From a virus, in the IMG/VR virus record IMGVR_UViG_3300045135_000865, positions 1-25,888 of that record: DNA of 25,888 nt, one strand, 5' to 3'. Shown one piece after another: positions 6,076-22,871 of this stretch. The notes beneath the pieces were generated by a model. That model made no database searches. It saw only the letters and a list, made by a program, of their open reading frames with translations, and was not told the origin of the DNA. Positions within the stretch are counted from its first letter, which is position 1, and every line of letters starts with the position of its first letter. A program made the translations under genes and the position numbers.

Positions 6076-6077
6076 AG

Positions 6078-7326: not shown

Positions 7327-7337
7327 CTTATTACCTT

Positions 7338-10300
7338 TTAAATAATACCACCAAGTAGACCTTTATTACTTGTACCAAACAAGAATCTAAACATCAGTGA
7401 AGTAGAGGCAGCATCTTCTTCTGCTGCAAGCTGTGTTCTAACTGATTCTAGTTCTTTATCTGCAAGAACAATCTGCAAAGCTCTGTCCATTGCTGACTCA
7501 CTAGAAGTAAATGCAAAGCTCATGTTATCACGTTCACGTTGCCAGATTTCATCTAAGTTTTTAGAGGTCAAAGCATTGATAGTCTTTGCAAAGTCCATGT
7601 TACTTTCGTTCTGTGCAGCATTGTTCAGTGTAGCAATATTCTGTCTCCACTGAGCATTTGCCTGTGCTACGACAAGACCATTCTGAGCATTGAACATGTC
7701 CCTTTGGTTTTGTACTTCTGCATTAAACTGTCTCAAAGCATTCACAGTATTTACGTTGAACTGATCCATAGCATTTGCTTGAGATGCATTGAACTGACCT
7801 ACGTTTGCAGTTAGATTTGCAAAGAACTGGTCTGTCTGGTTCTCACTCGTAGCATTAAACTGTTTAGCAGCATTCTCTGCAGCTTGGTCAGTAAGCAGTG
7901 CTTGAATGTTCTGCTGAGATTTAAACAACTCTGTCTGCTGCTCGTTAGACAAATTAGCTAAATCCATTTGCAAAAAGTTTTGTGCATTTACTACAGCAGC
8001 TTGTTGACGGTTATTTAGGTTAGCTATATCTAGCTGCGACAATGCAGCAGCCTCTGCCATAATTACAGCTTGCTTGTTGCTTAGGTTTTGCAACTCCATT
8101 GTATTAGCTGCACGAGAGTTCTCAAGAGCAACCTGCTGTTCAGCAGTAAAGTTCATGTTGGCAATCTCAGAGACTTTAGCTGCATTCATAACCTTAGCTT
8201 GGAATGCTTGATCAAACTCCATTCCCAAGAACTTAGATCTTTGCTCTGCCTTAAACAAAGCCATTTGCTGCTTGTTACCAGCATCAATCTGAGCAATAGG
8301 TAGTGCAGCTTCCATAGCAGCTTGAATAACTGCTTGACCTGCAAGAGACGAAGCACCGAGGCCTCTAGCTGCAAGCATGGCTGTAGCTTTACGCATAGAA
8401 CCAGCAGCCCATGCAGGTGTATCACCACCTTCAAACTGTTGCATAAGCCCTGCTAGTTCGTCTTGAACAGAGGCAGCAGCTACTTCACCAGTACCAAATG
8501 CTGCATCTACTTGAGCTTGATCTACACCAGTTCCTTGGATAACTTCTCCATTTGGACCTGTCTGTAGTGTACGGGTAGGTAGTTCTCCACCTGCAACTTC
8601 TTGTACAGTCTTTGCTTGACCTTCAGCACCTTGTAAGTCAGATACCATAGTAGTGTCTGAGGTTTGACCTGTTACATCTTTTGTAACTGTGCCAGTTTGT
8701 GCTGTAGTTCCTTCAGTTTCTTTTTTAACATCTGCAGCTATGGTCTCAGGAGTCACAGTAGATGTTTTTGCAGTTACAGGCATTCCTACTTGAGAAACAG
8801 TACCTACGGTAGAAGCTTCAGCCATATTTGCTAGGTCAGTAGTCTTACCTGCATTTTGACCAATAAAGTCTGCTTCATCAGTCTGTATTTTATTTACTGC
8901 ACCCTGAACAGGTTGCATAGTTTGGGTAACAAGATTTTTCTGCATCTCTTGAAAGTCTTCAAGACTTAGTCCTGTAGTACCGTCCTGTGCACCTGGTCTT
9001 ACTCTTGCCATACCAGACATTGCTTGTTGGTACTTACCCATACGAGCTGCAGCAGCAGGATTAGCAGCTAGGAAGTTAGTAAGCTGATCTGCTGGGCCTT
9101 GGAATCCTAAGAACTTTCTAGCAAGCTGTACATCACCACCTTCTGCCATAGCTATTATACCACCTTGTGCAGCAGCTTTGCTAAATCCTGGAGGTACATA
9201 CGTTAAAGGCTTACCAGAGGCATCCTCAGTTACAGTCACTGACTGACCAAACTGGTTTGTGTACTGAGCCTGACCACCAAAACCTGCTTGAGATTGTGAG
9301 GTAAGGTTAGCCATATTAGTACCAGTGTAGTTATCTCTTACAGTAACTTGATCTGGTACAGCAGATAATCCTGCAGTTTGTACTGGTTGCTGGAAGGTAC
9401 CCGTAATAGCAGCTTGTTCGTATGTGTTTGTACCTGTACCACCTAAATTAGTAGTGTCTGTTCCAGTACCATTTTGATAAGTAGTCGTAGTTCCTGAATC
9501 AGTATTGTAGGTAGTTTCATCAACATCATAGGTAGTTGTACTAGTTCCAGTATCAGTTGTTGTGTCCGTTCCTGTACCTGTGCCTGTAGTACCTGTACCT
9601 GTTTGACCACCGCCACCAGTAATAGTTTGATCTACAACTTTTGTTTCCTTAATCTCTGGCATTTTAAAGCCAGCAAGAAAGTCTACATTAAGAAGATCTT
9701 GATAATCATCCCACCAAGGATTATAAACTTCATCATATGCTTTTAGGTATACACTATACTTTTCTTGCATAGCAGTAGGCATAGCTGCTTTAAGTATATC
9801 TCCTTGAATACCAAAATTCCTAATGCGACCAAAACCACTACCATTTCTTAAGTTCCAGTCGTTGTTGTTAGGTTGTACAGAAGTAATTAAATTTCCATTT
9901 GCTTTAGAATAAAGTTTTAATACATCTTGACCCTGAATTTGTTCATACTGTACGTCATAACCACCATACATTTGCTCTGTAGCTATGGATGCAGCAGCTT
10001 CAAGTCTTCCTGCATCAATTTCATTACCCCCTGGAGTCTTTGCAGCCTCCATAATAATATCCCAGTTACGAGTTTCATAGTTAGAACCTACCACTCCATA
10101 CAGAAGTTCACTAGCTTTAGTTGATATTGGTTGCCAGTAGTCAGAAGGTTTGTCGTATAAAGACTCAACACTCTCACCTGCAAGAGCCTCCATCATTTCA
10201 CGCATGTTAGGCTTACGAGGCTTACCTGCTTTTACAGAGGCCACATAAGAATCTATGTAACCATCATTAACCCAAGTAGGGATACCAACACCATCTATAG

Positions 10301-10661
10301 TAGCTTTATAGGTTCTTTCTTCTGGCATCGACCAAGTGCCATTTCCGTTAGGATTAACTTCAGGATCACGTTGAGGGGGTATATTTGCCCTAGCTTCAAA
10401 GGCATTAGCTAAAAGACGAGCATCATTAGCAGCACTTAAAGGATTCTTTACAGTAGTATTAGCAGTAGTACCATCAGCCCATGTAATAGTCCAGTTACCT
10501 GATCCCCCAGATATAGTATAGTTATCTGGATCAGCAGGAATATTACCCTCAGATGTAACTCTATCTAGATCATCTTGAATATAAGAAGGTAGATTACCCT
10601 GTTCGTCATAGAACTTTTCATCACCCTCTGGGATAGGCGTATTTGTGTTTTGCTCTGCCAT
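7338..10661 (-). CDS. Large repetitive virion protein, helical C-terminus (1107 aa)
   Basis: 1107 residues from ATG 10661. The N-terminal third is globular and Trp/Tyr-rich. Residues about 345-415 are a Thr/Gly low-complexity linker dominated by TGTG, TTT and TNT units. A QGGIIAMAEGG glycine motif follows near residue 500. The last 400 residues are a long Ala/Gln/Asn-rich helical array with repeated heptad-like units such as NLNNRQQAAV, NLSNEQQTEL and QFNA. No enzyme motif is seen. Proteins of this type occur with internal virion proteins in marine podoviruses, so a role in the ejection apparatus or capsid core is likely. The sugar module ends 11 bases upstream, so translation may continue from the hldD message. 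No paralogue is present in the window. Confidence 0.65.
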   Translation of the reverse strand: MAEQNTNTPIPEGDEKFYDEQGNLPSYIQDDLDRVTSEGNIPADPDNYTISGGSGNWTITWADGTTANTTVKNPLSAANDARLLANAFEARANIPPQRDPEVNPNGNGTWSMPEERTYKATIDGVGIPTWVNDGYIDSYVASVKAGKPRKPNMREMMEALAGESVESLYDKPSDYWQPISTKASELLYGVVGSNYETRNWDIIMEAAKTPGGNEIDAGRLEAAASIATEQMYGGYDVQYEQIQGQDVLKLYSKANGNLITSVQPNNNDWNLRNGSGFGRIRNFGIQGDILKAAMPTAMQEKYSVYLKAYDEVYNPWWDDYQDLLNVDFLAGFKMPEIKETKVVDQTITGGGGQTGTGTTGTGTGTDTTTDTGTSTTTYDVDETTYNTDSGTTTTYQNGTGTDTTNLGGTGTNTYEQAAITGTFQQPVQTAGLSAVPDQVTVRDNYTGTNMANLTSQSQAGFGGQAQYTNQFGQSVTVTEDASGKPLTYVPPGFSKAAAQGGIIAMAEGGDVQLARKFLGFQGPADQLTNFLAANPAAAARMGKYQQAMSGMARVRPGAQDGTTGLSLEDFQEMQKNLVTQTMQPVQGAVNKIQTDEADFIGQNAGKTTDLANMAEASTVGTVSQVGMPVTAKTSTVTPETIAADVKKETEGTTAQTGTVTKDVTGQTSDTTMVSDLQGAEGQAKTVQEVAGGELPTRTLQTGPNGEVIQGTGVDQAQVDAAFGTGEVAAASVQDELAGLMQQFEGGDTPAWAAGSMRKATAMLAARGLGASSLAGQAVIQAAMEAALPIAQIDAGNKQQMALFKAEQRSKFLGMEFDQAFQAKVMNAAKVSEIANMNFTAEQQVALENSRAANTMELQNLSNKQAVIMAEAAALSQLDIANLNNRQQAAVVNAQNFLQMDLANLSNEQQTELFKSQQNIQALLTDQAAENAAKQFNATSENQTDQFFANLTANVGQFNASQANAMDQFNVNTVNALRQFNAEVQNQRDMFNAQNGLVVAQANAQWRQNIATLNNAAQNESNMDFAKTINALTSKNLDEIWQRERDNMSFAFTSSESAMDRALQIVLADKELESVRTQLAAEEDAASTSLMFRFLFGTSNKGLLGGII
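9415..9626 (-). repeat. Thr/Gly low-complexity coding repeat
   Basis: A stretch of short imperfect ACA/GGT/ACT codon repeats inside the 1107-residue gene. It encodes a Thr/Gly-rich linker (TGTGTTGTGTGTD and similar) between the N-terminal globular part and the helical C-terminal part. Confidence 0.7.
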
Positions 10662-10672
10662 TCTACTTTACC

Positions 10673-11443
10673 TTAAACTGAAAGAGTCTCTCTAAATTTT
10701 GTTGTGTCTGCTTTAGTAAACTCTTGGTAATTACCTTTTAGATTATCTGGAAAATCAATAAACTCAATAGAAGCACCAGTTTTGTTAGAAACATCTAAAG
10801 CTACATCATAAAAGCTTTGTGTAGTTCCTGTTCCAAAATTCCATATCCCTGATTCTTCTATGTTAAAAAACTTTTGGTGATCCATCACAACTTTACCAAC
10901 ATGGATAAAATCTCTTACAAACTTTTCTGATCCTTTGAAGAGTTTGATCTTACCTGTTGTTTTAGCTTGCTCCATAAACTTTGTCTGTGGGCTTGCTTGG
11001 TTTCCTTTGTGTTCCTCTTGGGGACCGTGTACGTTGAAGTATCTAAATATGTGTGTAGTAATAGGAGCATTTCTCAACTCTACATACTTTTCAAACAGTG
11101 CTTTGCTACGAGCATAGTGGTTCTGAGGATCAAGAGGTGATGTTTCTTTGAAGTCTGACTTTAGTCCGTACACCGAGGCACTAGAAGCAAACTGAAACTT
11201 AACGTTGTGTTTTATACACTCCTCGTACAACTTGATACTAAACTCTATATTTTGTCTGTATATACGACTGATATTTGTTTCAGTAGTAGAGCTAATAGCT
11301 CCTAAGTGTATTACCCAGTCTAAACCCTTTACTTTAGGAAACGACATACCCCATTCGTTTTTAATCACTTCGTGGTGTGGAGATAGAGCATTGACCATAT
11401 TCTTGCCAATAAACCCATTGCTGCCAGTAACTAGTATTTTCAT
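10673..11443 (-). CDS. hldD: ADP-L-glycero-D-manno-heptose 6-epimerase-like (HldD)
   Basis: 256-residue short-chain dehydrogenase/epimerase. The NAD(P)-binding loop is TGSNGFIG (G7, G10, G13), the catalytic segment is SSASVYG, and YARSK gives Y110 and K114. Matches specific to HldD rather than generic sugar epimerases are GAISSTTE, RYFNVHGPQEEHKG (K146 corresponds to the E. coli catalytic K178), KLFKGSEKFVRDF, GIWNFGTG and FPDNLKGNYQEFTKADT. HldD converts ADP-D-glycero- to ADP-L-glycero-D-manno-heptose, the last step of the LPS-core heptose pathway. It is about 50 residues shorter than E. coli HldD, mainly in the segment after the nucleotide loop and at the C-terminus, so activity is likely but substrate range is unproven. 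The start overlaps the cupin stop as ATGA. Confidence 0.85.
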   Translation of the reverse strand: MKILVTGSNGFIGKNMVNALSPHHEVIKNEWGMSFPKVKGLDWVIHLGAISSTTETNISRIYRQNIEFSIKLYEECIKHNVKFQFASSASVYGLKSDFKETSPLDPQNHYARSKALFEKYVELRNAPITTHIFRYFNVHGPQEEHKGNQASPQTKFMEQAKTTGKIKLFKGSEKFVRDFIHVGKVVMDHQKFFNIEESGIWNFGTGTTQSFYDVALDVSNKTGASIEFIDFPDNLKGNYQEFTKADTTKFRETLSV

Positions 11444-11796
11444 TTCTGGCTATCTCCCCGACCTACACGATAGTTATCCTCTACCGAATCAGGAGTAGAT
11501 ACTTCTATTACTGTGCCTTCCGTTTCACAAATGATTTGATGCGGGACCAAAGGCTCGTTACGCCACGTATCGCCAGCTGTAAGAGTCTTTTCATGAGTGC
11601 TTGCATCTTTTGTATCAATATAGATAACTTTAAATTTTCCCTTAAGGACATACCAAGTCTCATCTTTCTCTTTGTGAAAGTGCATAGAAAACTTAGCACC
11701 TTCGTTAAAATGTAAAAACTTACCACAATATTTGTCGTTGGTTGCCCATATTAGTTCTGACCCCCAACCCTTTTTAACATGTCCATTAAGCCGCAT
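11440..11796 (-). CDS. Single-domain cupin (sugar-module protein)
   Basis: 118 residues with a clear cupin motif 1: H39-F-H41-x4-E46-x6-G53. Motif 2 is GDTWRNEPLVPH, with H86. These residues would bind one metal ion. The fold is the cupin_2 type also seen as a C-terminal domain of type II mannose-6-phosphate isomerases and in stand-alone sugar-modifying proteins. It overlaps the kinase upstream by 11 bases and the epimerase downstream by 4, so it is part of the heptose unit. Plausible roles are sugar isomerisation or epimerisation. It could in principle substitute for the missing sedoheptulose-7-phosphate isomerase, but nothing in the sequence shows this. Confidence 0.75.
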   Translation of the reverse strand: MRLNGHVKKGWGSELIWATNDKYCGKFLHFNEGAKFSMHFHKEKDETWYVLKGKFKVIYIDTKDASTHEKTLTAGDTWRNEPLVPHQIICETEGTVIEVSTPDSVEDNYRVGRGDSQK

Positions 11797-12541
11797 TTTG
11801 TATCTCCTCTAAACGAGGTGCATACACACCGACATGTTGAACAGTTACCGCAGCAGCTTTCATAGCAAACTTAATAGCTTTTTCTATACTGTCTGTTTGT
11901 AGGTAGTTGTACACCAGAGCTGCTAAAAAGGTGTCTCCTGCTCCACAAACATCATGTGCATCTACTTTTGGTGGTAAGTATAGCTTATCCTTGTAGACGA
12001 CTTTATCTGACCCAAACGTGACAATCATGTTGTCTGCATCAGATGTTCTATTTTCGTACTCGTACTGATTTATTTTTACAAAAGCTTTGTTGAACAGTTT
12101 TAAGTCTTGCTTTTTTGTATCAATAAATACTGGACCGTTGTAGCTCTCTAAGATGCTTTGGATAGCAAAGGTAGAGACATAACCTTTATTGTAATCAGAG
12201 ATAACGACAGCATCGTAATCACTAAAGTTGTGTAGGCGATGCTCATCATGTTCTTCTTCTATTAGAGGTACATCAACTCTTACGATCTGTTGACCTGTCT
12301 TTGAGTCTATGTAACGTTTCTTTGTTTCTTTGTATAGAATATCATAGTGACAATCTACACCAAGTGACTGAAAGTTTTGTAGTACATTACCAGCCATTCC
12401 TAATTTACGAATAGTGGTATCCCAATCTAACACTGGTACGGGTGCCTCTGGGTTTAGCCTGTTTACGACACCATAACAGTACTCGTCATAGCATCCGTCT
12501 CCTATCAACAAAATCTTGGAGGGTTTTTGTTGTTGATTCAT
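11786..12541 (-). CDS. rfaE1: D-glycero-beta-D-manno-heptose-7-phosphate kinase-like (PfkB family)
   Basis: 251 residues from ATG 12541 (MNQQQKPSKILLIGDG). The start is set by GAGAGGA six bases upstream. A TTG five codons earlier is part of that ribosome site and is rejected. Features shared with the HldE kinase domain are GDGCYDEYCYG followed by NRLNPEAPVPVL, then GMAGNV, DYNKGY, DTKKQD and the PfkB signature DVCGAGDTF with catalytic base D203. The reaction is phosphorylation of heptose-7-phosphate to the 1,7-bisphosphate. It is shorter than the usual kinase domain of about 318 residues. In E. coli this domain is fused in front of the adenylyltransferase. Here the two are separate genes in the reverse order, overlapping by 56 bases in different frames. 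Confidence 0.85.
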   Translation of the reverse strand: MNQQQKPSKILLIGDGCYDEYCYGVVNRLNPEAPVPVLDWDTTIRKLGMAGNVLQNFQSLGVDCHYDILYKETKKRYIDSKTGQQIVRVDVPLIEEEHDEHRLHNFSDYDAVVISDYNKGYVSTFAIQSILESYNGPVFIDTKKQDLKLFNKAFVKINQYEYENRTSDADNMIVTFGSDKVVYKDKLYLPPKVDAHDVCGAGDTFLAALVYNYLQTDSIEKAIKFAMKAAAVTVQHVGVYAPRLEEIQNAA

Positions 12542-12896
12542 TATTGGTCCTCTCAAAGAATACTACCTCTTTACAGTATTCCTCACCAACAATCTTCTTC
12601 CCCCTCCAATCGGAACCTTTCACCATAACGTCAGGTTCATACCTTTTAATAATAGCTGCCAAGTCTTCATCCGAATCAAACGACACAACAGCATTAACAG
12701 GCTTCAACATTGACATCAGATGCTTCCGATTTTTCAGATTGTTAAAAGGTCTATCTGCTCCCTTGTTATACCTTATTTTGTTGTCTGTGTCAATAGCTAC
12801 GAGTAAATAGCCCCCTAACATACCTGCAAAATCAATAAGATCAAGGTGTCCAGAGTGTATTACATCAAAGGCTCCATTGACAAATACTTTCTTCAT
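12486..12896 (-). CDS. rfaE2: D-glycero-beta-D-manno-heptose-1-phosphate adenylyltransferase-like
   Basis: 136 residues, about the size of the C-terminal HldE domain. The nucleotidyltransferase signature GAFDVIHSGH (residues 8-17) is present, followed by LLVAIDTD, the RPFNNLKNR loop, VVSFDSDED, DVMVKGSDWRG and a C-terminal STTKTLQDF like the STTNII of E. coli HldE. It would join ATP and heptose-1-phosphate to give ADP-D-glycero-D-manno-heptose. Related cytidylyltransferases (TagD/GCT) share the fold, but the downstream match and gene context favour heptose. An AGGA eight bases before ATG 12896 is its ribosome site. It is divergent from gmhB with only 29 bases between starts. Confidence 0.85.
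   Translation of the reverse strand: MKKVFVNGAFDVIHSGHLDLIDFAGMLGGYLLVAIDTDNKIRYNKGADRPFNNLKNRKHLMSMLKPVNAVVSFDSDEDLAAIIKRYEPDVMVKGSDWRGKKIVGEEYCKEVVFFERTNNESTTKTLQDFVDRRRML
12548..12554 (-). promoter_or_regulatory. Ribosome binding site deciding the rfaE1 start
   Basis: GAGAGGA on the minus strand, six bases before ATG 12541, lying inside the end of the rfaE2 coding region. Confidence 0.7.
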
Positions 12897-12925: not shown

Positions 12926-13573
12926 ATGTCCAGATTTAAACATATCATAGAACAAGACCCACAACAAGTTCAACAACAAAACCTACCTGCTGATTGGCCT
13001 AAAGTGTTTCCTAAATCTATTGTTGGGCTAGACCGTGATGGTGTTATCAACGTAGATAGAGGTCACTACCTTACTGATCCTGATGACTGGGAGCCTATCC
13101 CTGGTTCACTAGAAGCTATCCGTATGCTTAGGTTGAAAGGCTACAAAGTAGTTATCCTGACTAACCAAGGCGGTATTACAAAGAAAGAGCAGACACATGC
13201 ACAAGTGGATGCCATTCATCAACGTATGATGGAAGTGTTTGGCAATGCAGGTATCTACTCCATTGATGGTTTATTTTATTCTGAGTCCTCACTAAAAGAA
13301 GACTACTATGCTAAACCTAATATTGGAATGTTTCATCGTACTGAGAAAGAAATATTCAACAACAAAATTAGATTTAAAGATAAGGGGTTCTACGTAGGTG
13401 ATAAGATGACAGATCTTAAAGCTGCAGAACGTATTGGTGCTACCCCAATCTTAGTACGTACTGGTCATGGGGTAGCTACTGAAAAAGATCTTCAAAAGTT
13501 CTCTAAGGAGAAACTAAGAAAGAAGACTAAGGTGTTTGAGAACCTTCTTCAGTTTGCTCAGAAGCTACCGTAA
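12926..13573 (+). CDS. gmhB: D-glycero-D-manno-heptose-1,7-bisphosphate 7-phosphatase-like (HAD family)
   Basis: 215 residues, the only plus-strand gene in the sugar module. HAD motifs are all present: nucleophile D36 and acid D38 in GLDRDGVINVD, T79 in ILTNQGG, K130 in KPNIGM, and D159/D163 in GDKMTD. The order and spacing match GmhB, which removes the 7-phosphate before nucleotide activation. There is a 30-residue N-terminal extension rich in Gln. The loop before KPNIGM, which in typical GmhB holds a Cys/His zinc site, has no cysteine here (YSESSLKEDYYA). A histidinol-phosphatase-like substrate cannot be excluded, but the neighbours favour heptose. Strong AAGGAG and its own promoter precede it. 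Its 3' end overlaps the carbamoyltransferase end by 47 bases on the opposite strand. Confidence 0.85.
   Translation: MSRFKHIIEQDPQQVQQQNLPADWPKVFPKSIVGLDRDGVINVDRGHYLTDPDDWEPIPGSLEAIRMLRLKGYKVVILTNQGGITKKEQTHAQVDAIHQRMMEVFGNAGIYSIDGLFYSESSLKEDYYAKPNIGMFHRTEKEIFNNKIRFKDKGFYVGDKMTDLKAAERIGATPILVRTGHGVATEKDLQKFSKEKLRKKTKVFENLLQFAQKLP
12944..12973 (-). promoter_or_regulatory. Possible sigma70-type promoter for rfaE2-rfaE1-cupin-hldD
   Basis: On the minus strand, TTGAAC (12973-12968) and TATGAT (12949-12944) are separated by 18 bases. The -10 matches consensus at 5 of 6 positions and the -35 at 4 of 6. It would start about 40 bases before the rfaE2 ATG and lies inside the 5' end of gmhB. Moderate support only. 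Confidence 0.4.
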
Positions 13574-15230
13574 CAAGCTTCCCTACCTCTGGTAGATACA
13601 TGTAGTCAATGTCACAGTTCTTCATGGTGTGTAGTGCATCATGTAGTGTCTCTACAAGTGGTTCACCTGCTAGGTTGAAGCTTGTATTGAACAGGATTGG
13701 TACACCAGTGATCTTACGGAACTCTTCAATCAGATCATAGTAGGCTTCATTCTGCTCTCTGGTTACAGTCTGAATGCGACATGTACCATCTACGTGTGTG
13801 ATAGCAGGAACTTCACCATGCTTGTCAGTCTTGAAGTCCATTGCATACATCATGAATGGTGACTCTTCCATTCCATGTGTCTCAAACCATTCCTCAAAGT
13901 ATTCCTTGAGCATTGATCCTGCAAAGGGTCTAAACCATTCACGGCCTTTGACCTTGTTTACTGTGTCCTTACCATCAGGATCTGTGGGATCGTACAGGAT
14001 AGAACGATTACCCAGTGCTCTTGGCCCTGCCTCTGATCTACCTTGGAACAACGTAACAATGTTCCTATCTGCAATCAGCTTGGCTACATCAGCAGGGGTA
14101 ACATCTTTTGTGTCGTATCCCTCTAGATTGTAGTTTTCTTCACGTTCAGGACCAAGATACAGTGTGCTTAGTGGACGTTTTGTTTTATCTTCTACATTTT
14201 GATAATAGATAAGCTGTGCTAGTCCAATAGCTGTACCACCATCATGTGAGATAGGATCAACGTAGATGTTAAGATCAGGAAAACGTTTCTTGTAGTAGTA
14301 GTTAGCTACACAGTTAAGTCCATAGCCCCCTGCAATCACAATATTCTTGTGTCCTGTCTTGTCTACAGCTTTCTCAATCAAATCCCCAACAAGAGTTTGT
14401 GTTCTATCTTGAACTGCCCAAGCTAAGTCTTTTGCAGCATCTGTTACCTTACTAGGGTCTTTGTGCCAAGCACGAGGATCTTCTTTTAACTCTAGGAAAG
14501 GATGTCTGTTGTGGTCTACGTGTGCACCTGCAGGGTAGTTAGGTAAGAAGAGGTTTTTATTACCCCTACCTTCTATAAATAGTTCAGGAATCTCTGGGTT
14601 TTCTTTTCCATAAGGAGCAAGACCCATAGTTTTTCCTGCCTCAATAAAACCAAAACCAAGGTACTCTGACACAGCTTCGTATGCTTTTACTAATGTAATA
14701 GCACTGTCCATTTCCAAGTCTTCTTTCTTAATACGATGTGTATTATAGTTACCACCATAAGAAGTAAAGACTTGTTTTATACCCTCTTCATAGTCACAAT
14801 TATAAATGGTTTCAGTTTCAAAACCTGGGTTAGTAGAATCTTCAGATACTTGAATATTTCTTTTAGTTCCAGAACCATCTACAATAACAGCAGCAGCTTT
14901 ATCAAAGCCTGAGTTATAAAATGCTGCAGCAGCATGGCCTATGTGGTGGTTAGCACCTACATTAATTATTTGTATGTTTGGATTAAACTTACGAATTAAT
15001 GCAGAAAAAGGGTCTTCACTAGTCCAAGTTAATTTAGGAAACTCTTGACTAGTTCCACCAAGAACTAATACATCTATACGATACTTAAGTGCTTCCAACA
15101 TTCCCCTAAAAGGGTTTCCATCGTATTTGTAACGAGACAGACGTTCTTCTTCGATGTAAAATTTAATTTCACCATCTACTAAAAAGGCAGCAGAACCATT
15201 GTGTCCTGGGTTAATAGCTAAGATATTCAT
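13527..15230 (-). CDS. O-carbamoyltransferase, NodU/CmcH/TobZ family
   Basis: 567 residues, full length for the family. The N-terminal Kae1-like domain starts NILAINPGHNGSAAF and continues with IEEERLSRYK. The metal-binding NHHIGHAAAAFY is at about residue 94, with H95, H96 and H99. The C-terminal carbamoyltransferase domain includes GRSEAGPRALGNRS (from residue 397) and NTSFN near 513, followed by GEPLV. The family uses carbamoyl phosphate and ATP to carbamoylate hydroxyls on sugars or antibiotics. With a glycosyltransferase one base upstream and heptose genes next to it, the likely acceptor is a sugar on host LPS or on the virion. Similar genes are known in marine phages. The acceptor cannot be read from sequence. 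Confidence 0.9.
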   Translation of the reverse strand: MNILAINPGHNGSAAFLVDGEIKFYIEEERLSRYKYDGNPFRGMLEALKYRIDVLVLGGTSQEFPKLTWTSEDPFSALIRKFNPNIQIINVGANHHIGHAAAAFYNSGFDKAAAVIVDGSGTKRNIQVSEDSTNPGFETETIYNCDYEEGIKQVFTSYGGNYNTHRIKKEDLEMDSAITLVKAYEAVSEYLGFGFIEAGKTMGLAPYGKENPEIPELFIEGRGNKNLFLPNYPAGAHVDHNRHPFLELKEDPRAWHKDPSKVTDAAKDLAWAVQDRTQTLVGDLIEKAVDKTGHKNIVIAGGYGLNCVANYYYKKRFPDLNIYVDPISHDGGTAIGLAQLIYYQNVEDKTKRPLSTLYLGPEREENYNLEGYDTKDVTPADVAKLIADRNIVTLFQGRSEAGPRALGNRSILYDPTDPDGKDTVNKVKGREWFRPFAGSMLKEYFEEWFETHGMEESPFMMYAMDFKTDKHGEVPAITHVDGTCRIQTVTREQNEAYYDLIEEFRKITGVPILFNTSFNLAGEPLVETLHDALHTMKNCDIDYMYLPEVGKLVTVASEQTEEGSQTP

Positions 15231-15231: not shown

Positions 15232-16158
15232 TTACTTCACCTTCTTTTCAATATCTTTTACGATACTGTTATACATTACGTTAATCTCTTCATCACTAAA
15301 GTCCATGATTGTATCATTTGCTCTGTCAGCTAGATGACTTTCAAGATTTGAGATACGAATAGGTGAGTACTTCTTGGCATCCTTCTTTTCAATAATGTTA
15401 AAGTAATCTGGGTAAGTTGTGTTAATTGCAAAAGTAGAACCTACAATAACTGTACCAGGTTTTCCTAATGCTCTTGCCATATGTTGACCAACAGAGTCTA
15501 CACCAATAAAGTAATCTGCTGCGTCAATAAAAGGAACCCACATCCTAATATCTGCAGTAGGTTTTAAGGTGTAGGTATCCTCTTGCATATGAAACTGTTG
15601 CTCTGCCATTAAAACAAGGTTAAATTTAGCAGAAAGTTTTTTAACCAGTTTTAGATATGACTGAGGATCTAAAGAACGAGATGACTCATCAACAAGAACA
15701 CCTGTCTGATGTCTTTGAATTGAACGACCAAATGGCTGCAGGATTATTGTTTTTTGTTTTTGCTGTTGATTCTTAGCATCTAGAATCATACCTGCTGCAT
15801 TTACTTCTTCCATCTTAGCTGTTTTTAAAACAGGTGCACCAAGATCAGAATGATCGTCTGTATTGTTGATTAGGTAATCAAAGGCTTCTGCTAAAGATTT
15901 TTCTTGTTTGTAGTACCCTGGAACTCTGTAAGGCTCAGGGGATATAACTTCTTCAGCTTTAAGAACTATTTGTTCAAAGATACCTTTTTGTTCTGGATTA
16001 AAGGTTTTGTCTTGTAGTTCTGGAATACCCCAGTAAAGTGTATCCCATCCATTTAGTAATACTGCAAAGTCATCATGTTTCTTTGCATATTTGATAAGAG
16101 CAGGTATAGCTGCAATAGCACGACCTGCTCCACCATCTAACATAAACAGTTTTTTCAC
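15232..16158 (-). CDS. GT9-like glycosyltransferase (heptosyltransferase-type)
   Basis: 308 residues from GTG 16158 (MKKLFMLDGG); an internal ATG five codons later is an alternative. The N-terminus LDGGAGRAIAAIPALIKYAK corresponds to the Gly-rich first strand/loop of GT-B heptosyltransferases. The donor-binding segment is FIGVDSVGQHMARALGKPG (around 217-235), close to the GT9 pattern with D221 and H226. The middle is divergent, so family membership is likely but the acceptor is unknown. It is first in its transcription unit, directly after a strong promoter, and one base before the carbamoyltransferase. ADP-heptose from the neighbouring genes is the natural donor to suggest. The acceptor could be LPS core or a virion protein. 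Confidence 0.7.
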   Translation of the reverse strand: MKKLFMLDGGAGRAIAAIPALIKYAKKHDDFAVLLNGWDTLYWGIPELQDKTFNPEQKGIFEQIVLKAEEVISPEPYRVPGYYKQEKSLAEAFDYLINNTDDHSDLGAPVLKTAKMEEVNAAGMILDAKNQQQKQKTIILQPFGRSIQRHQTGVLVDESSRSLDPQSYLKLVKKLSAKFNLVLMAEQQFHMQEDTYTLKPTADIRMWVPFIDAADYFIGVDSVGQHMARALGKPGTVIVGSTFAINTTYPDYFNIIEKKDAKKYSPIRISNLESHLADRANDTIMDFSDEEINVMYNSIVKDIEKKVK

Positions 16159-16211: not shown

Positions 16212-16240
16212 AGTATATCATAAAACTAAGTTAGTATCAA
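16212..16240 (-). promoter_or_regulatory. Sigma70-type promoter for GT9-carbamoyltransferase
   Basis: On the minus strand, -35 TTGATA (16240-16235), exactly 17 bases, then -10 TATACT (16217-16212). Both boxes match consensus at 5 of 6 positions. It lies in the longest intergenic gap of the window (16159-16236), with the -35 overlapping the stop codon of the chaperone-like gene. Expected start of transcription is near 16205, leaving a leader of about 45 bases. Confidence 0.75.
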
Positions 16241-16533
16241 GAAGGTTTAGTAGGCCACTGATCTAGTTCTAAATCAGGCCAGTCTTCGTGATTAGTTATA
16301 TCTCTTAGCTGAGTTCTATATGCAGCCCACAAAGCTTTATCTTCGTCACTCAAAGGACTGTCTGGACTCTGTGTCCAATCAGTCTCAAGTAAAAGATTAA
16401 ATCTTTTTTCTTTCTGTTGTATAGAATAACTAGCTATTCTTTTTGCTTCTTCTGCTGCCAACTCTTCTTCAGTTGGATCAGGTTCATCTCTATACCTAAC
16501 ACCATTAGGACTAAAAATCTGAAGTTTTGCCAT
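16237..16533 (-). CDS. Tail fibre assembly chaperone-like protein (98 aa)
   Basis: 98 residues from ATG 16533, with AAGGG eight bases upstream. It has the pattern of small phage tail assembly chaperones: a variable N-terminus, a helix rich in Glu/Ala (residues 21-43), then RFNLLLETDWTQSPDSPLSD and WAAYRTQLRDI (residues 44-79), ending with a WPTKP motif. Such proteins usually sit just after fibre genes and help the fibre fold or attach. It contains no cysteine, in contrast to the two genes before it. It closes the fibre group; a new promoter begins within its stop codon. Confidence 0.75.
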   Translation of the reverse strand: MAKLQIFSPNGVRYRDEPDPTEEELAAEEAKRIASYSIQQKEKRFNLLLETDWTQSPDSPLSDEDKALWAAYRTQLRDITNHEDWPDLELDQWPTKPS

Positions 16534-16544: not shown

Positions 16545-17252
16545 TTAATTTTCTACGTTTTCTGGCTCATCAAGTAAACCCCATATTGAAAAACAACCCC
16601 CACCAGAATGATTATTTAAGTTTTGATTAACCATAAGCTGAAAACCACCAAAGTTTTCCCAGTGAAGTTTAGCTCCTGCATGAGGGATACAAGGACAAAT
16701 GTAACCCTTTCTAGCCTGTGACCAGTTGTGATATCCTGGTTGCCACCCTGCACAGAATTGCCAACCAATGTAGCTGCACTGTCTAGAACAAGGAACTGTT
16801 CCATTCCACCCAGGGTGTTTGTAGAAAGAGCCTACCCCACCAAATTGTCCACACATACAATAGTTACTTTGGCCTATCTCACAATGACAACAGGTATTCA
16901 TATAATGACAGCTTATACCAATAACTCCATTACCAGAACATAGACAATTACCTAAATCATCTAGTATTCTCATGCAATAGTAGTTCCAACTAGCAGCACC
17001 GTGATGGTAAAAAAAGTAACATATGTGTTTAAAACATTTAAAAGGGTATTCAAAATTAGTACAAAATCCTGTCCCTTGCCAGTCAAGACATTTAGCTATT
17101 GTAACCCACTGACCAGAAGGTGCAAAAGTACCCTCACCTTGTGGGTATTCTGATTTATAACAAGGAGAACAAACTGTCGTAAAACAGGCTGTTGAGGGAA
17201 GGGCCGCAGCCCCTCCTGATGATTGTCCTGCTAATTTTACATATCTAGACAT
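16545..17252 (-). CDS. Cysteine-rich tail-region protein (235 aa), no family recognised
   Basis: 235 residues from ATG 17252, overlapping the upstream stop as TAATG. By my count 22 cysteines (about 9%), with many aromatic residues and glycines. Cysteine pairs include TCCHC (around 120-125), CMCG and CPC. The protein opens MSRYVKLAGQSSGGAAALPS, a segment like the start of fibre or tip proteins. No signal peptide, membrane segment or recognised domain is seen. Its place between a fibre-type gene and a fibre chaperone points to a tail tip or receptor-binding role. Abundant cysteines fit a disulphide- or metal-stabilised external protein, but that is inference. Codons are ordinary TGT/TGC, with no sign of frameshift. 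Confidence 0.65.
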   Translation of the reverse strand: MSRYVKLAGQSSGGAAALPSTACFTTVCSPCYKSEYPQGEGTFAPSGQWVTIAKCLDWQGTGFCTNFEYPFKCFKHICYFFYHHGAASWNYYCMRILDDLGNCLCSGNGVIGISCHYMNTCCHCEIGQSNYCMCGQFGGVGSFYKHPGWNGTVPCSRQCSYIGWQFCAGWQPGYHNWSQARKGYICPCIPHAGAKLHWENFGGFQLMVNQNLNNHSGGGCFSIWGLLDEPENVEN

Positions 17253-19201
17253 TAGTCGTCATACCCCCATATTTGAACTGCTACAGGAGTGGGACTATTG
17301 TTTGATACATAAAGTTTATCTGAGTTAGATAAAACGATACCTGTTCTTTCTAATCTGTTCGCAGATGCTTTGTACTCTAGTGTCCCTTCATTACCAACAC
17401 AATTATCAGAGTTAAAATAGTGGTTAGTATTTTTAAATATATCTGAACCTGTATTTTTAATAACAGTAGAGCATACAGCATTTCCAGAACCACTTGAAGT
17501 TAATTGAATAGTTTCAGTCTCTACTTTTTCCCAAGTAATGAGGTCTGGGGATCTGTAATGGAACATACAACCATTCCAACCACCTTCATCAGGAATAGAA
17601 CCAAAAGTGAAGCACTGCCACCAAATACCAAAGCAGCACTCTGCAACTAGTTGGGGTTGAGTAACAGATTCATAAGCACTTGTTTTTTCAGACCAAGCAG
17701 TAGGAGTTCCTGAAATACATTTAATCATACCTGCTGCAATCCAGTCAGCCATTGTTTTACACTGGTAACAACAGTTCTGATAAGTACTGCCAATAATACA
17801 TCCTGCCGTTGGAGCATACGCAGTATCAATACTGTAAATTCCATCTGTAGGGCTGTTTGAATTGCCAGATAGGGATGATCCTAATATCTCAAAATAGTTA
17901 CAGTCAGTGTATGGGTTATACCATAACCATTTAACCATAGGGGAACCCATACCTATAATAGATGGATAAAAAATACAACAAGCATCAGGCTGAGATGAAG
18001 GGGTACAGAATCTATACATACCATACATTCTGCAAGCCTGGATGGTATTTTCACTACAATCGTAAGATTTATCGTAGAGGATAACTTCTGTAACATATTC
18101 TGGATTAAACCCAGTAAAAAATGCTACGTCACAACCTGCCATCACGTACTTATTAGATATGTGTGTAGATTTCTGCCAAAGATCACAACAGCAACATCCG
18201 CAACAACCACAACATTCCTTCCATTTATTTCTATCACACTCTTGTGACAGGTAATTTGACCTACAATCTTGCCCACCATAAGTGGTTTTTTGGCCAGTAT
18301 TTAGATTTGTTGTAAACAAAGCATAGAAAGGCTGACACTGCGATCCTGCATACACTGGACAACTACTACCACCCAAATAAAACAATGGGGCATGGTCAGA
18401 CCAAAGGTCTTGGCTTTGCCAAGGAAGGTCACAGAAACACGTATAGTCATAGTAACAAGAAGTAAAGCAACAAGCACCACAGAAGTAAAATCTTCTTTTA
18501 CATTCTCTGCTTCCACAAAAAGCTATACAGCAACAAAGATCTTCTTGACCATACCTAATACCCATAGTACATTGAGTATAATTATTACTTAGGTTTTTTT
18601 CAGCACGAGGTGTCCAATAAGCTGTTTTAGACTGTCTTTCCCAAACCTCTCCTGAACCAGTAATAAAAGATGGTATATTTACTTGTTTTTGGAAAATAAG
18701 GCTATCTACATAGATAGCTGCACACACACAACACTGTACTCCTGCACCAAACGAACTGGTAGAAGCAGGTTGAAGTGACCCCCAACAAGTTCCTGCTCCT
18801 GTAATACCACACCAAACTTGTGTACGAATACAACACTGACTTCTTGTATAAGCTACATTATCTGTAGCATCACACCAGTTAAAGTGTCTGTCTTTAAAAC
18901 AGTTTGCACCTGTTTGAGTACACTTACATTCTGTTGACTCAGTATAAGCATATCCACAAAGACTGCTACCTACGTCTGATATGTATGATGTTCTTGCTAC
19001 AGGAGCATCTAATGTACTTATTGTAGTAGTACATTGAATACATCCATCTGTAGAAGAGTACTTTAAACTAATACAAGAATTTTTATCTGCATCTAGTGCT
19101 TGAGCATGAATTGTTATTGAGGCAGGATTACCACTAGAGTTTGTATAAATTTTACAAGCCTCTTGTGCTCCTATTACTGCCTCTGCTAAAGATCCTGACA
19201 T
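17252..19201 (-). CDS. Cysteine-rich tail appendage protein (649 aa), no family recognised
   Basis: 649 residues from ATG 19201, with GAGG ten bases upstream. By my count about 58 cysteines (about 9%), and roughly ten vicinal CC groups. The densest is ECCGCCGCCCCD at about residues 328-339. Cysteines run through the whole chain except roughly the last 60 residues (ASANRLERTGIVLSNSDKLY), which look like an ordinary beta-rich virion domain. The middle is rich in Tyr, Trp and Ser/Thr, and segments such as GCMFHYRSPDLITWEKVE resemble glycosidase-like beta-propeller blades; this is only an impression. It sits between the GNVT-repeat fibre and a second Cys-rich protein, so an external fibre or receptor-binding part is likely. 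No catalytic motif is recognised. Confidence 0.65.
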   Translation of the reverse strand: MSGSLAEAVIGAQEACKIYTNSSGNPASITIHAQALDADKNSCISLKYSSTDGCIQCTTTISTLDAPVARTSYISDVGSSLCGYAYTESTECKCTQTGANCFKDRHFNWCDATDNVAYTRSQCCIRTQVWCGITGAGTCWGSLQPASTSSFGAGVQCCVCAAIYVDSLIFQKQVNIPSFITGSGEVWERQSKTAYWTPRAEKNLSNNYTQCTMGIRYGQEDLCCCIAFCGSRECKRRFYFCGACCFTSCYYDYTCFCDLPWQSQDLWSDHAPLFYLGGSSCPVYAGSQCQPFYALFTTNLNTGQKTTYGGQDCRSNYLSQECDRNKWKECCGCCGCCCCDLWQKSTHISNKYVMAGCDVAFFTGFNPEYVTEVILYDKSYDCSENTIQACRMYGMYRFCTPSSQPDACCIFYPSIIGMGSPMVKWLWYNPYTDCNYFEILGSSLSGNSNSPTDGIYSIDTAYAPTAGCIIGSTYQNCCYQCKTMADWIAAGMIKCISGTPTAWSEKTSAYESVTQPQLVAECCFGIWWQCFTFGSIPDEGGWNGCMFHYRSPDLITWEKVETETIQLTSSGSGNAVCSTVIKNTGSDIFKNTNHYFNSDNCVGNEGTLEYKASANRLERTGIVLSNSDKLYVSNNSPTPVAVQIWGYDD

Positions 19202-19217
19202 TTTGTAATTACCTCTT

Positions 19218-22200
19218 TTAAATTGCTGTAGCTAAGTAGTAAGCTTTTCCAGTGCTGATACCTGCACTTACTCCTGTCAGGGCAGAGCCATCCCCAACAA
19301 AACATGTTGTTGCACAAACGATTGGTGCCTGAATATTACCTGTAAAGGTTTGGCCTGAAGTAGAAGCTTTAGTTCCTAGACATGTTACGATGTTACCTGT
19401 GCAAGTTGTAGAAGCTTTACCAGATAAACATGTAGCTAGTCCGTCAACATTAGCTACTGTATGATTGTGACTATCATCTGCTACTGTTGCAGTAATTGAG
19501 ATGTTAGACGTACCATCAAAAGATGCTGAACCAGAAACGTCACCAGATAGTGCTATGTTTCTGGCAGTTTGTAGTGCAGTTGCTGTAGCTGCATTACCTG
19601 TTGTAGATCCTGAAGATCCAGTTACGTTGCCTGTGACATTACCTGTCACATTACCAGTTACGTTACCAGTAAGGTTACCTGTCACATCTCCTGTAACAGG
19701 AGCACATACCCTTGCAAAGGTTACTGTGTCAGATGTACCTACTGCCTGTCCAATGGCAATATCGTTAGCATTAACTGTAACACCAGTACCTGCACCAATG
19801 TTAAAGGTTGTACCATCTAGTGTCAAGCCTGAACCTGCACTATAAACAGCAGTCTCAGCTACGACAGTAAAGCTGATAGATGTTGTACCAAATGTAATTG
19901 TACCTGATGTGTTCATCACGTACAGTTCACCTGCACCTGTGTCACCTTCTTTTACAAAGAATGCATCACCTTCACCTAGTGCATCTTGATCTGAAGGGCC
20001 ATAAGTATCTGCATCTGTAGCACGAGTAAGCTCCCAGTTAGTAGAAGCAGAACCAGTGTTAGTTACTGTATAAATACCATTTTCAAAACCATTACTTTGG
20101 TTGTAAACAAGTACACGATCATTCAGGCTAAGAGTTACCCCATCAATAACTAAAGCAGCTTGTGTACCTGCGTTGGTAAGTGTAGCATCTACTCCTGGAG
20201 TACCTGCAGCCACCGCAGCAGCACTAGTAGCATAAGTAGCATTAAGAGCACTTGGTGTTTCTACACGTACTGGTGTGTGGTAGTGAATACCTGCAGCAGC
20301 AATCGTATCAACGTACTCTTTTGTTGCAAGATGACCTGCACAAGTAGGATATTCACTAGTTCCTACACAAACAGATCCAAAGCATACATTGCTAGATGTA
20401 CCTACATCCTGTCCAATAGCTATTGTACCATTTGTGTAGGTTACGCCTGTCCCACCTGATAGATGACTATTAACTCTAGCTGTTGTAAAGTATTGATTTG
20501 TACCTTCAGTTAAATCATCTGTTGTAAAGTTACCTAGTGTAGAGACACAACCTGTAACGTTACCTGTCAGGTTACCTGTAAATGCACCATACAAGTTTGT
20601 AGCACAAACACTTGTTGCATTGTAGATGCAGTTTGAGTTAGCATCTAATGCTCCACCGAGTTGTGGTGTAGTGTCTTCAGCAAGTTGAGTAAGAGCATCA
20701 CCAAGGGTAAATGCTGCAGAGGACCAAATAGAGCCTGTGTAAACTTTTAAGGCATTGTCTGTAGTATTCCAGTATAATGCACCAGTTAGTAGGGCATTAC
20801 CATCGTTGTCTACTGATGGGTCTGATGATTTGTTACCAAGGTATCTGTCATCAAATGCGTCATAAGAAGCAGCAGCATTTGTCTCTGAAGTTGCAGCAGC
20901 AGTAGCTGAGTTACTTGCATTGGTTGCACTTGTAGCCGCAGCAGTTTGACTTGCTAGTGCACATGCAGCAGAAGTACATGCTGCAGTAGCTGATTGCAAG
21001 ATACCATCTACGTAACATTTATTTGTGAGGTCACATGCATTTGTTGGTGTGTAGCAAGAAATAATAGGACAAGTAGTCTGAACATTTCCTGTAAATGTGC
21101 CACCTGATAAAGGCATTGCTGTAGCAACACAAGTGTCTGTGTAGTTCTTAGTGCTTGCATCTTGAGCAGCAGTTGGATCACCTAGACCTGTAATCTTAGA
21201 TGTACCCATTGCAATGGCACCAGACATTGTACCACCAGTCAAGTTTAGTTTAAGAGCATCCTGAGTATCTACGTAACCTTTACGAGTCAGTGTGTCGTCT
21301 GTAGCAGGTGTAGCTGTAGATGTAGCCTTATTAGCACCAAGGGTAATATCCCCTGTCATAGTGCCACCTGCAGTACCTAGTTTAGTACCTAGACAAGTAG
21401 TAAGAGTAGTGTAAACATTAGCATCATCGTTGATAGCTGCAGCTAATTCGTTAAGAGTATCAAGAGCACCTGGAGCACCACCAATCAAGTTAGTAATCTG
21501 TGTGTCTACGTACCCTTTTGTACTTGCATCTCCATCAGCAGTTGGTGTTCCAAGAGATGTAATCTTAGCAGAACCCATATCAAGTCCTGCAGTTCCTGTC
21601 ATGTTAATATCACAGAAAGTAGAAGTACCTGTAGATGTTACATTACCAGTTAAATTACCTGTAACGTTTCCTGTAACATTACCTGTGACATTACCAGTCA
21701 GATCACCAGTAACATCTCCTGTTAAGTTACCTGTAACATTACCTGTTAGATTCCCTGTGACATCTCCTGTAACGTCACCAGTAATATTACCTGTAACGTT
21801 GCCAGTTACGTTACCTGCTACATTACCTGTAATGTCTCCTACGAAACAAGTATTAGCTGTAACTGTAGTACCTGTTATAAGACCTGGTGTAGTACCGCCA
21901 ATAGTAGCACCATCAATAGTACCCCCATTGACATCGACTGAAGCAAAAGTACCCTGTCCTGTCGTACTAACTGTAGTAAAGCTACCAGCAGCAGCACTGG
22001 AAGCACCGATAACAGTGCCATCAATATTACCTGCATTAATATCTACTGTGGTTAAAGTTGCTGTGCCTGTAGCAGATAAGTTTGGAACTGTTACTGTGTT
22101 TCCAAAGGCAGAAGTACCTGTTACTGCCAATGTACCTGCTAGTGTGGTGTTACCTGTAACTCCTGCAGTACCACCAACAGTAAGATTACCACTAGCTCCT

Positions 22201-22871
22201 AGAGTTGTAAACTCACCAGAAGCAGCAGTCGTACCACCAATAACTGTGTTGTCGATTGTACCTGCATTAATATCTGCTGTGTCAGCTACAAGGCTGTCAA
22301 TATTTGCCGTACCATCAATGTATAGGTCTTGCCACTCTGCAGTGGAAGAACCTAAATCGTATGTACCATCTGCAGAAGGGATAAGGTCTGAGGCAACATC
22401 AGCATTTACTGTAACAGTATCACTATTGTCACTACCAAGAGTAGTATTCCCATTAACGGTAAGGTTACCCGTAATAGTAGCATTTTCATGCACCGCCAGA
22501 GTGTCGATATAACCCACACCATCAATGTAAAGATCTTTAAACTCAGCAGCCGCAGAACCCAGATCAATATCTTCATCAGTGACAGGAACAATAGCTCCAT
22601 CTTGTATCCTTATCTGTTCTACTGCAGCACTGCCAACATTTGTAAAGAAGTTGATCCTGTTGTTTGCAGTATCAATTACTACTTTAGTAAAGTTGTTTGT
22701 GTCTGAGATCGTTGGGATGTAAGCACCTTCAGCAGAAGATCCATCGTGCTTGTGTCCTGTTGCCTGATTAAAGGCTGCTAGTATCTGCTGAAATTCGTTG
22801 TTGACTGGTTCAGCTTTAATAACCTGACCAGAAACAATATCCGCAGCACTCTGTCTTGTATAACCTGCCAT
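19218..22871 (-). CDS. Long repeat-containing tail fibre (1217 aa)
   Basis: 1217 residues from ATG 22871, abutting the upstream stop. The N-terminal 60 residues (MAGYTRQSAADIVSGQVIKA, then GHKHDGSSAEG) are a typical virion-attachment start. Two DLYIDG units (around 110-125 and 180-190) and three IDGTVIG-like units follow. Residues 345-412 are 17 tandem GNVT-type tetrapeptides, and a second block of six lies near the C-terminus. Several YVDT-type units (KGYVDT, KEYVDT, KCYVDG) alternate with Ala/Ser-rich coiled segments. The fold is probably beta-solenoid or triple-stranded fibre, from its composition. The first 341 residues have no cysteine; the rest have about 22. It would project from the tail and bind the host. 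Confidence 0.85.
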   Translation of the reverse strand: MAGYTRQSAADIVSGQVIKAEPVNNEFQQILAAFNQATGHKHDGSSAEGAYIPTISDTNNFTKVVIDTANNRINFFTNVGSAAVEQIRIQDGAIVPVTDEDIDLGSAAAEFKDLYIDGVGYIDTLAVHENATITGNLTVNGNTTLGSDNSDTVTVNADVASDLIPSADGTYDLGSSTAEWQDLYIDGTANIDSLVADTADINAGTIDNTVIGGTTAASGEFTTLGASGNLTVGGTAGVTGNTTLAGTLAVTGTSAFGNTVTVPNLSATGTATLTTVDINAGNIDGTVIGASSAAAGSFTTVSTTGQGTFASVDVNGGTIDGATIGGTTPGLITGTTVTANTCFVGDITGNVAGNVTGNVTGNITGDVTGDVTGNLTGNVTGNLTGDVTGDLTGNVTGNVTGNVTGNLTGNVTSTGTSTFCDINMTGTAGLDMGSAKITSLGTPTADGDASTKGYVDTQITNLIGGAPGALDTLNELAAAINDDANVYTTLTTCLGTKLGTAGGTMTGDITLGANKATSTATPATDDTLTRKGYVDTQDALKLNLTGGTMSGAIAMGTSKITGLGDPTAAQDASTKNYTDTCVATAMPLSGGTFTGNVQTTCPIISCYTPTNACDLTNKCYVDGILQSATAACTSAACALASQTAAATSATNASNSATAAATSETNAAASYDAFDDRYLGNKSSDPSVDNDGNALLTGALYWNTTDNALKVYTGSIWSSAAFTLGDALTQLAEDTTPQLGGALDANSNCIYNATSVCATNLYGAFTGNLTGNVTGCVSTLGNFTTDDLTEGTNQYFTTARVNSHLSGGTGVTYTNGTIAIGQDVGTSSNVCFGSVCVGTSEYPTCAGHLATKEYVDTIAAAGIHYHTPVRVETPSALNATYATSAAAVAAGTPGVDATLTNAGTQAALVIDGVTLSLNDRVLVYNQSNGFENGIYTVTNTGSASTNWELTRATDADTYGPSDQDALGEGDAFFVKEGDTGAGELYVMNTSGTITFGTTSISFTVVAETAVYSAGSGLTLDGTTFNIGAGTGVTVNANDIAIGQAVGTSDTVTFARVCAPVTGDVTGNLTGNVTGNVTGNVTGNVTGSSGSTTGNAATATALQTARNIALSGDVSGSASFDGTSNISITATVADDSHNHTVANVDGLATCLSGKASTTCTGNIVTCLGTKASTSGQTFTGNIQAPIVCATTCFVGDGSALTGVSAGISTGKAYYLATAI
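19620..19691 (-). repeat. Six tandem 12-bp (GNVT) repeats
   Basis: Six imperfect 12-base units encoding GDVT/GNLT/GNVT near the fibre C-terminus. Units differ mostly at third codon positions, showing selection on the peptide. Confidence 0.85.
21636..21839 (-). repeat. Seventeen tandem 12-bp (GNVT) repeats
   Basis: 204 bases made of 17 imperfect 12-base units that encode G-(N/D)-(V/L/I)-(T/A) tetrapeptides. Synonymous differences between units suggest old duplication kept by selection. The antisense frame stays open through the repeat only because of its composition. Confidence 0.9.

Follow-up and report, generated by a model that had tools for sequence, protein, structure and literature searches.

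Cysteine-dense tail proteins of phages are coupled to a GT9-type glycosyltransferase: a possible thiol-glycosylation system

The virus record IMGVR_UViG_3300045135_000865 holds 25,888 bases, all of which were analyzed here and are referred to below as the window. On its minus strand, a tail fibre gene is followed by two genes for very cysteine-rich proteins, a short chaperone-like gene and a set of sugar genes that begins with a GT9-type glycosyltransferase (GT). We find that cysteine density and this GT couple near-perfectly in both directions, across tail proteins without detectable similarity to one another, and we propose that the GT may glycosylate the cysteines. The tail genes concerned are as follows.

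19218 to 22871, minus strand: tail fibre, 1217 amino acids (aa), with PHROG tail fibre matches; 22 cysteines, the first at residue 342 (distal part)
17252 to 19201, minus strand: cysteine-dense protein, 649 aa, 58 cysteines (8.9%), proposed distal tail; relatives in other GT loci
16545 to 17252, minus strand: cysteine-dense protein, 235 aa, 22 cysteines (9.4%), proposed distal tail; relatives in other GT loci
16237 to 16533, minus strand: tail assembly chaperone-like protein, 98 aa (PF16778)

The fibre and the 649- and 235-aa proteins together hold 102 cysteines in 2,101 residues; the remaining 18 open reading frames (ORFs) tabulated in the window hold 19 in 6,207 (0.3%), with none in the chaperone-like protein and two in the 516-aa tail protein upstream of the fibre. 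The first-pass annotation, made from the letters of the window, had given the same counts and positions, and a recount from the ORFs reproduced them exactly. It described a cysteine gradient across consecutive tail genes; the rise is real, but it is better put as none in the proximal fibre, a moderate content in the distal fibre and a very high content in the next two proteins. For comparison, loci of the same phage family in which no GT was seen contain 480 ORFs of 150 aa or longer; only two, each a fibre truncated by a contig end, have 8 or more cysteines per 100 residues. Since GT-less loci are nearly devoid of such ORFs, the cysteine block of the window lies far beyond chance. The cysteine-dense proteins probably belong to the virion, given their position between the fibre and the tail-assembly-chaperone-like gene. 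Profile searches, suggested in the annotation as a check, returned no Pfam, PHROG or NCBIfam family for the 649- and 235-aa proteins, and scans of viral contigs with either protein as a single query found no relatives; relatives were reached only through GT loci. The AlphaFold2 model of the 649-aa protein, built on an 8-sequence alignment, has a predicted local distance difference test score (pLDDT) of 30.4, too low to judge cysteine pairing or exposure.

Downstream of the block, and not connected with it in the first-pass annotation, lie genes for the GT, a carbamoyltransferase and synthesis of an ADP-heptose-type sugar.

15232 to 16158, minus strand: GT9-type glycosyltransferase, 308 aa (phrog_8954, weak PF01075), proposed heptosyltransferase acting on the cysteine-dense tail proteins
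13527 to 15230, minus strand: NodU/Nol-like carbamoyltransferase (PF02543/PF16861; phrog_1601), proposed to carbamoylate heptose
12926 to 13573, plus strand (opposite to its neighbors): HAD phosphatase, GmhB-like; best NCBIfam match NF006506, 132.8 bits against a cutoff of 178
12486 to 12896, minus strand: protein like the adenylyltransferase half of HldE; TIGR02199, 101.7 bits against a cutoff of 181.5
11786 to 12556, minus strand: PfkB protein like the kinase half of HldE; TIGR02198, 123.6 bits against a cutoff of 345; PF00294
11440 to 11796, minus strand: cupin (PF07883), recurrent in the cassette
10673 to 11443, minus strand: epimerase like HldD (ADP-heptose 6-epimerase); TIGR02197, 219.2 bits against a cutoff of 274.6

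The same run occurs in the single-cell marine virus AG-345-O18, in which a cysteine-rich pair (758 aa with 73 cysteines and 290 aa with 31) is followed by a short chaperone-like protein, the GT, the carbamoyltransferase (these last two identified by tblastn) and a phosphatase-like gene, while the remaining sugar genes lie upstream of the pair.

Relatives of the GT were collected from IMG/VR (593 confirmed, of which the best 80 were used), and a locus with at least 3 kb visible upstream was scored as positive if it held an upstream ORF of at least 150 aa with at least 8 cysteines per 100 residues. Such an ORF was present in 56 of 66 loci, or in 35 of 41 after clustering of the GTs at 90%; the 14 loci left out for having less than 3 kb upstream comprise 4 positives and 10 negatives. 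On the GT strand, 92 of 265 ORFs upstream of the GT were cysteine-dense, compared to 1 of 309 downstream. Among annotated phages, tblastn with the GT matched 24 records, which were grouped into ten and represented by one region each. All ten have a cysteine-dense ORF within 2 kb upstream of the GT, with a cysteine content of 7.6 to 12.9% in nine groups and 4.1% in Aeromonas phage HJ05, where a tail-region protein of 559 aa (positions 8309 to 9988, plus strand, of locus L018) carries 23 cysteines, 21 of them in its C-terminal half. HJ05, a cultured phage, has the most divergent GT (27% identity). Searches of its record, which had no positive control there, gave no kinase, adenylyltransferase or carbamoyltransferase match. 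Aeromonas itself makes ADP-heptose, which would suit a phage in need of the transferase alone. Cultured cyanophages with the GT include P-SSM2, S-SSM7, S-CAM1 and Sf-FS3. A collection of species genomes yielded nine further GT loci, all in metagenome-assembled genomes; eight have cysteine-dense ORFs, and two of these eight look like copies within one assembled genome.

For the reverse direction, one cysteine-rich adhesin family served as the query (454 relatives, 80 kept). The GT is present in all 52 loci that extend 4 kb or more past their last dense ORF, and these GTs form 22 clusters at 90%; the other 28, with less than 4 kb downstream, were left out (13 with the GT, 15 without). A second cysteine-rich adhesin family gave the GT in 10 of 10 loci. 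Both families were drawn from GT-bearing loci, so the result shows retention of the GT among close relatives and does not extend to cysteine-dense tail proteins in general.

A control on one genome backbone was available through the 516-aa tail protein, which is 67 to 70% identical to that of Roseobacter phages CRP-1, -2, -9 and -13, whose fibres and next proteins are not cysteine-rich; CRP-1 gave no GT match. Among 80 loci of this protein, 23 extend at least 6 kb downstream. With a threshold of 7 cysteines per 100 residues in ORFs of at least 100 aa, 14 of these have both the GT and cysteine-dense ORFs, 9 have neither and none is discordant (Fisher P of 1.2e-6); clustering at 97% leaves 11 and 8. 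When only 2.5 kb was demanded, the numbers were 14 and 27, plus 3 cysteine-dense loci without a visible GT, all of them contigs ending inside the fibre gene. In the GT-lacking locus L122, no GT match was found across the whole 29.7-kb contig. The fibres themselves differ accordingly: mean cysteine content is 2.25% in 11 distinct fibres from loci with the GT and 0.02% in 13 from loci without it (P of 1.2e-4), while the next most differing residue reaches a P of 0.009, and serine and threonine reach 0.3 and 0.22. At the 20 of 22 cysteine sites of the window fibre that align with fibres from GT-lacking loci, the 113 aligned residues are serine (27), alanine (26), threonine (13) and others (47), and never cysteine. 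The first-pass annotation had named relatives with ordinary cysteine content as the finding that would undo its interpretation; for the fibre such relatives do exist, and they argue against a fold-essential role of its cysteines. The relatives recovered for the 649- and 235-aa proteins include no cysteine-poor one, so the same comparison lacked a partner. In the GT-bearing locus L139, a cysteine-free fibre precedes two cysteine-dense proteins.

Of the GT and the carbamoyltransferase, the GT is the better predictor of cysteine density, as loci in which only one of the two was matched show. Seven carbamoyltransferase regions without a GT match, as judged from the fetched region and the tblastn match list, have no tail gene at 8 cysteines per 100, although one short antisense ORF (L179, 136 to 609, plus strand) passes the threshold. 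These regions include cyanophages S-CAM8 and P-RSM4, in which the carbamoyltransferase adjoins fibre-type genes. Conversely, L075, L078, L080 and HJ05 combine the GT and cysteine-dense proteins without a carbamoyltransferase match. The 393-aa adhesin of S-CAM8 is 43% identical over 274 aa to its cysteine-rich counterpart in L075, a weak, glycine-rich match obtained with composition correction off.

By sequence, the GT is only loosely tied to known families. The window protein scores 16.8 bits against PF01075, under the curated cutoff of 22, and 8 of 10 phage members match that family at E values up to 0.1 (best, 1e-4). Searches of PDB sequences with GT profiles yielded matches at chance level, apart from a weak WaaF match (E of 2.3) in one search that another lacked, and profile-to-profile similarity to three E. 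coli heptosyltransferases was modest (51.9% probability, E of 1.5e-4, 85 columns). It was the fold search that settled the class. The AlphaFold2 model (pLDDT of 95.3) retrieved TibC first in Foldseek (E of 8e-10), WaaF a close second (3e-9) and then WaaC, with TM values of about 0.5 to 0.6. VIA Z values span 19 to 24 across GT9 enzymes (GT9 enzyme 3tov, 23.6; WaaF, 21.4; TibC, 20.9), with the next group near 11.7. The modeled GT thus has the GT-B fold of WaaC, WaaF and TibC (GT9 class). Like WaaC and WaaF, it retains the donor-site motif D-[ST]-x-x-x-H, which aligns with that of WaaF, WaaC and WaaU: D221 and S222 are present in 59 of 59 phage GTs and H226 in 56 of 59. Unlike WaaC and WaaF, it has G-R13 in place of the conserved G-D13; Asp13, invariant in E. 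coli WaaC, WaaF and WaaU and which we take to be the catalytic base in WaaC, is Arg13 in 59 of 59 and in 10 of 10 aligned phage GTs. The fold alignment, which gives aligned ranges only, lays residues 1 to 308 of the GT model on residues 97 to 392 of TibC and places Arg13 near Asp-110, so the two positions are probably equivalent. An arginine here might fit an acceptor other than a sugar hydroxyl; a thiol may not need that base.

We suggest a model in which the phage enzymes would make an ADP-heptose-type sugar nucleotide and the GT would move the heptose onto cysteine thiols of the exposed distal tail proteins in the reducing cytoplasm. The carbamoyltransferase would then carbamoylate the sugar, as proposed for Pseudomonas WapO on lipopolysaccharide (LPS) heptose. 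The outcome would be a distal tail on which each set of three chains, with its 102 cysteines, could bear as many as about 100 S-linked sugars, and this coat would serve host attachment or shielding of the tail. Capping may also spare the many thiols random oxidation after release. We hold it to be reasonably probable that the GT places heptose or carbamoyl-heptose on tail-protein cysteines; the data themselves show the cysteine density, its coupling to the GT, its spread over dissimilar tail proteins and the GT9 fold, from which action of the GT on these proteins, cysteine sulfur as the acceptor, ADP-heptose as the donor and the role as a coat are inferred. With slightly less confidence, we favor a broader proposal, that of a general thiol-glycosylation system of tailed phages in which a GT9-derived enzyme hyper-glycosylates cysteines on whatever adhesin evolves them, and in which unlike adhesins would acquire or lose cysteines by the dozen as the enzyme comes and goes. 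The 96 cysteine-dense proteins collected here fall into 20 clusters unlinked by blastp at an E of 1e-6, though some clusters may be remotely related. In these 96 proteins, the cysteines are spaced almost at random, adjacent cysteines being slightly overrepresented.

Several observations weigh against thiol heptosylation by this cassette. No sequon or motif was found around the cysteines of the 96 proteins. For the four heptose-type enzymes (HldD, the two HldE halves and GmhB), heptose models are the best NCBIfam matches, yet all fall below curated cutoffs, and no GmhA match appeared among the ten window proteins scanned with NCBIfam. Arginine at the catalytic position could equally mean altered or lost activity of the GT. 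The ten GT loci with at least 3 kb upstream and no cysteine-dense ORF there are L046, L054, L055, L056, L058, L068, L084, L086, L092 and L096. L068 turned positive upon extension, revealing a 3584-aa fibre with 68 cysteines (10 per 100); the contig of L055 stops inside a fibre related to a cysteine-rich one, and L054 has a like layout. L046, L084, L086 and L092, on contigs of 9 to 14 kb, were counted unextended. L056 (on the 58-kb contig G003; L058 has a like layout) and L096 (27.8 kb, contig G008) carry the GT without a cysteine-dense tail ORF, and L056 and L058 have the carbamoyltransferase as well; either the acceptor lies outside the contig or the GT aims at another target. Together with L186, the ninth locus from the assembled genomes, they are cases of a GT with no visible cysteine-dense partner.

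Conservation of the cysteines bears on several alternatives. The first-pass annotation had proposed a survey of cysteine positions in related phages, and its outcome varies with the family: in a glycine-rich 260-aa adhesin family, cysteines are about 90% conserved, compared to about 55% for other residues, and in a 1390-aa family they are 69 to 81% conserved, compared to 59 to 71%, but in a 221-aa family they are conserved no more than the remaining residues. Between the 649-aa protein of the window and a 56%-identical relative, cysteine conservation is 84%. Where cysteines are replaced among relatives, the substitutes are mostly asparagine, threonine, serine, alanine and glycine. Such conservation implies selection on position, which fits obligatory acceptor sites and equally fits structural cysteines; it is the main point in favor of a structural role and counts against glycosylation.

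The best-placed alternative, which we nevertheless regard as unlikely, is that the GT glycosylates serine, threonine or asparagine of the tail while the cysteines serve something else, such as disulfides, that is useful only in glycosylated tails. TibC, the best Foldseek match, is a BAHT protein heptosyltransferase of E. coli that heavily heptosylates a surface adhesin, and the source names serine as the acceptor and Asp-110 as the catalytic base (PMC4358343); the high cysteine conservation in one adhesin family also fits this alternative. However, the serine and threonine contents are alike in fibres with and without the GT, whereas cysteine differs about 100-fold, and the aspartate conserved in E. 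coli heptosyltransferases is an arginine in the phage GT.

A second alternative, somewhat less probable still, is that the cassette alters the host surface, by superinfection exclusion or LPS change, and that the cysteine-rich proteins bind receptors and are adapted to the surface so altered. In cyanophages, clusters of this type have indeed been called LPS genes (PMC3037559). On the other hand, the LPS of marine Synechococcus WH8102 is described as lacking heptose (PMC4515613), and this strain is listed as the host of Sf-FS3, a phage with the GT, so host LPS is an unlikely target, at least in Synechococcus phages. Moreover, the GT adjoins tail genes, and a host-surface target gives no reason for cysteines in mutually dissimilar tail proteins.

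The first-pass annotation had offered disulfide links, metal links or attachment points as explanations of the cysteines; attachment points fit best, because of the coupling to the GT, which neither kind of link explains. Disulfides within or between chains, hardening the distal tail once the released virion meets oxygenated water, would suit the highly conserved cysteine positions of one family. We consider them improbable, as cysteine density follows the GT and GT-lacking fibres have no cysteine at the window sites; the cysteine totals of the 96 proteins are even in 55 and odd in 41, cysteine numbers of relatives often differ by an odd count, and the family matches obtained for 19 of the 21 tabulated window ORFs include no thiol oxidase. 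Binding of zinc, copper or iron in the distal tail, to which cysteine density alone points, is very improbable: C-x-x-C is not enriched in the 96 proteins (observed/expected of 0.97 at spacing 3), histidine is scarce (1.7%) and a link to a glycosyltransferase would be unexpected. Least probable of all is modification of the thiols by another cassette enzyme, for example the cupin, labeled a cysteine dioxygenase in some cyanophage records. A cupin match does recur, in 27 of the 48 cysteine-dense GT loci for which 5 kb or more is visible downstream, but 21 of the 48, with limited flanks, show none.

Glycosylation of tail-protein cysteines by the GT has partial parallels in described systems. TibC, of the BAHT family, which is marked by a dodecamer with bound iron, shares the GT9-like fold, but the phage GT is shorter, has arginine where the E. 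coli LPS enzymes have aspartate, and adjoins cysteine-dense tail proteins. The S-glycosyltransferases that act on glycocins belong to another GT family. They place a sugar on the cysteine sulfur of a ribosomal product; unlike the phage proteins, glycocins are described as small peptides with a leader and a transporter and with one or two sugars, N-acetylglucosamine there (PMC12457901) and glucose in another glycocin. Mycobacteriophage virions carry glycans on capsid and tail proteins (Freeman 2023, cited in PMC12619734), located at the C termini of capsid and tail-tube subunits, and the cited passage names no cysteine-dense acceptor. Putative carbamoyl transfer to a heptose is described for Pseudomonas WapO, whose target, according to the cited passage, is the LPS core and not a virion protein (PMC8005017). 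The cyanophage LPS clusters hold the same genes as the phage cassette, the GT corresponding to T4-GC 302 and the carbamoyltransferase to T4-GC 303. There, T4-GC 304, 305, 307 and 308 were noted to co-occur in P-SSM2, S-SM2 and S-SSM7 (Sullivan 2010; PMC3037559). In that 2010 account the clusters have no known function or are regarded as stuffer DNA, and the word cysteine is absent from its text (PMC3037559).

Among the open-access titles and opening lines of abstracts examined, a scope outside which subscription papers and most preprints fall, none links cysteine-rich phage tail proteins with a glycosyltransferase. We know of no system with S-linked heptose, and the proposed modification would, to our knowledge, be without precedent both as S-heptosylation and as a dense S-glycan coat of a virus. 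The component families are known, but since we found no described system that ties cysteine-dense adhesins to a glycosyltransferase, the whole would be a new kind of system. From an unusual amino acid composition, the proposal derives an enzyme and substrate that can be tested, and it suggests what the "LPS gene" clusters of P-SSM2, S-SSM7 and similar cyanophages may be for. It also predicts a new posttranslational modification on marine and freshwater viruses. Cysteine density could then serve as a compositional marker for glycosylated adhesins in metagenomes, and an enzyme for glycosylating thiols of proteins may come out of the system.

Some minor features of these loci are recorded here. 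The 3' ends of the GmhB-like gene (12926 to 13573, plus strand) and the carbamoyltransferase gene (13527 to 15230, minus strand) overlap, and the GmhB-like gene is inverted likewise in all 9 of the 14 same-backbone GT-bearing loci in which it is visible. Pelagibacter phage HTVC033P has two tail-region proteins with mildly raised cysteine (locus L008, 15894 to 17690 and 18224 to 19966, plus strand; 11 in 598 aa and 10 in 580 aa) and gave no GT match in tblastn of the annotated phages. Elsewhere in the window, positions 1619 to 10661 (minus strand) encode five proteins without any cysteine, of which two are very long (1169 and 1107 aa); the four of the five that were scanned had no Pfam match. 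These are possibly internal virion proteins. At 34 to 606 (plus strand), opposite to the structural genes, lies a fragment of a ribonucleotide reductase large subunit (PF02867).

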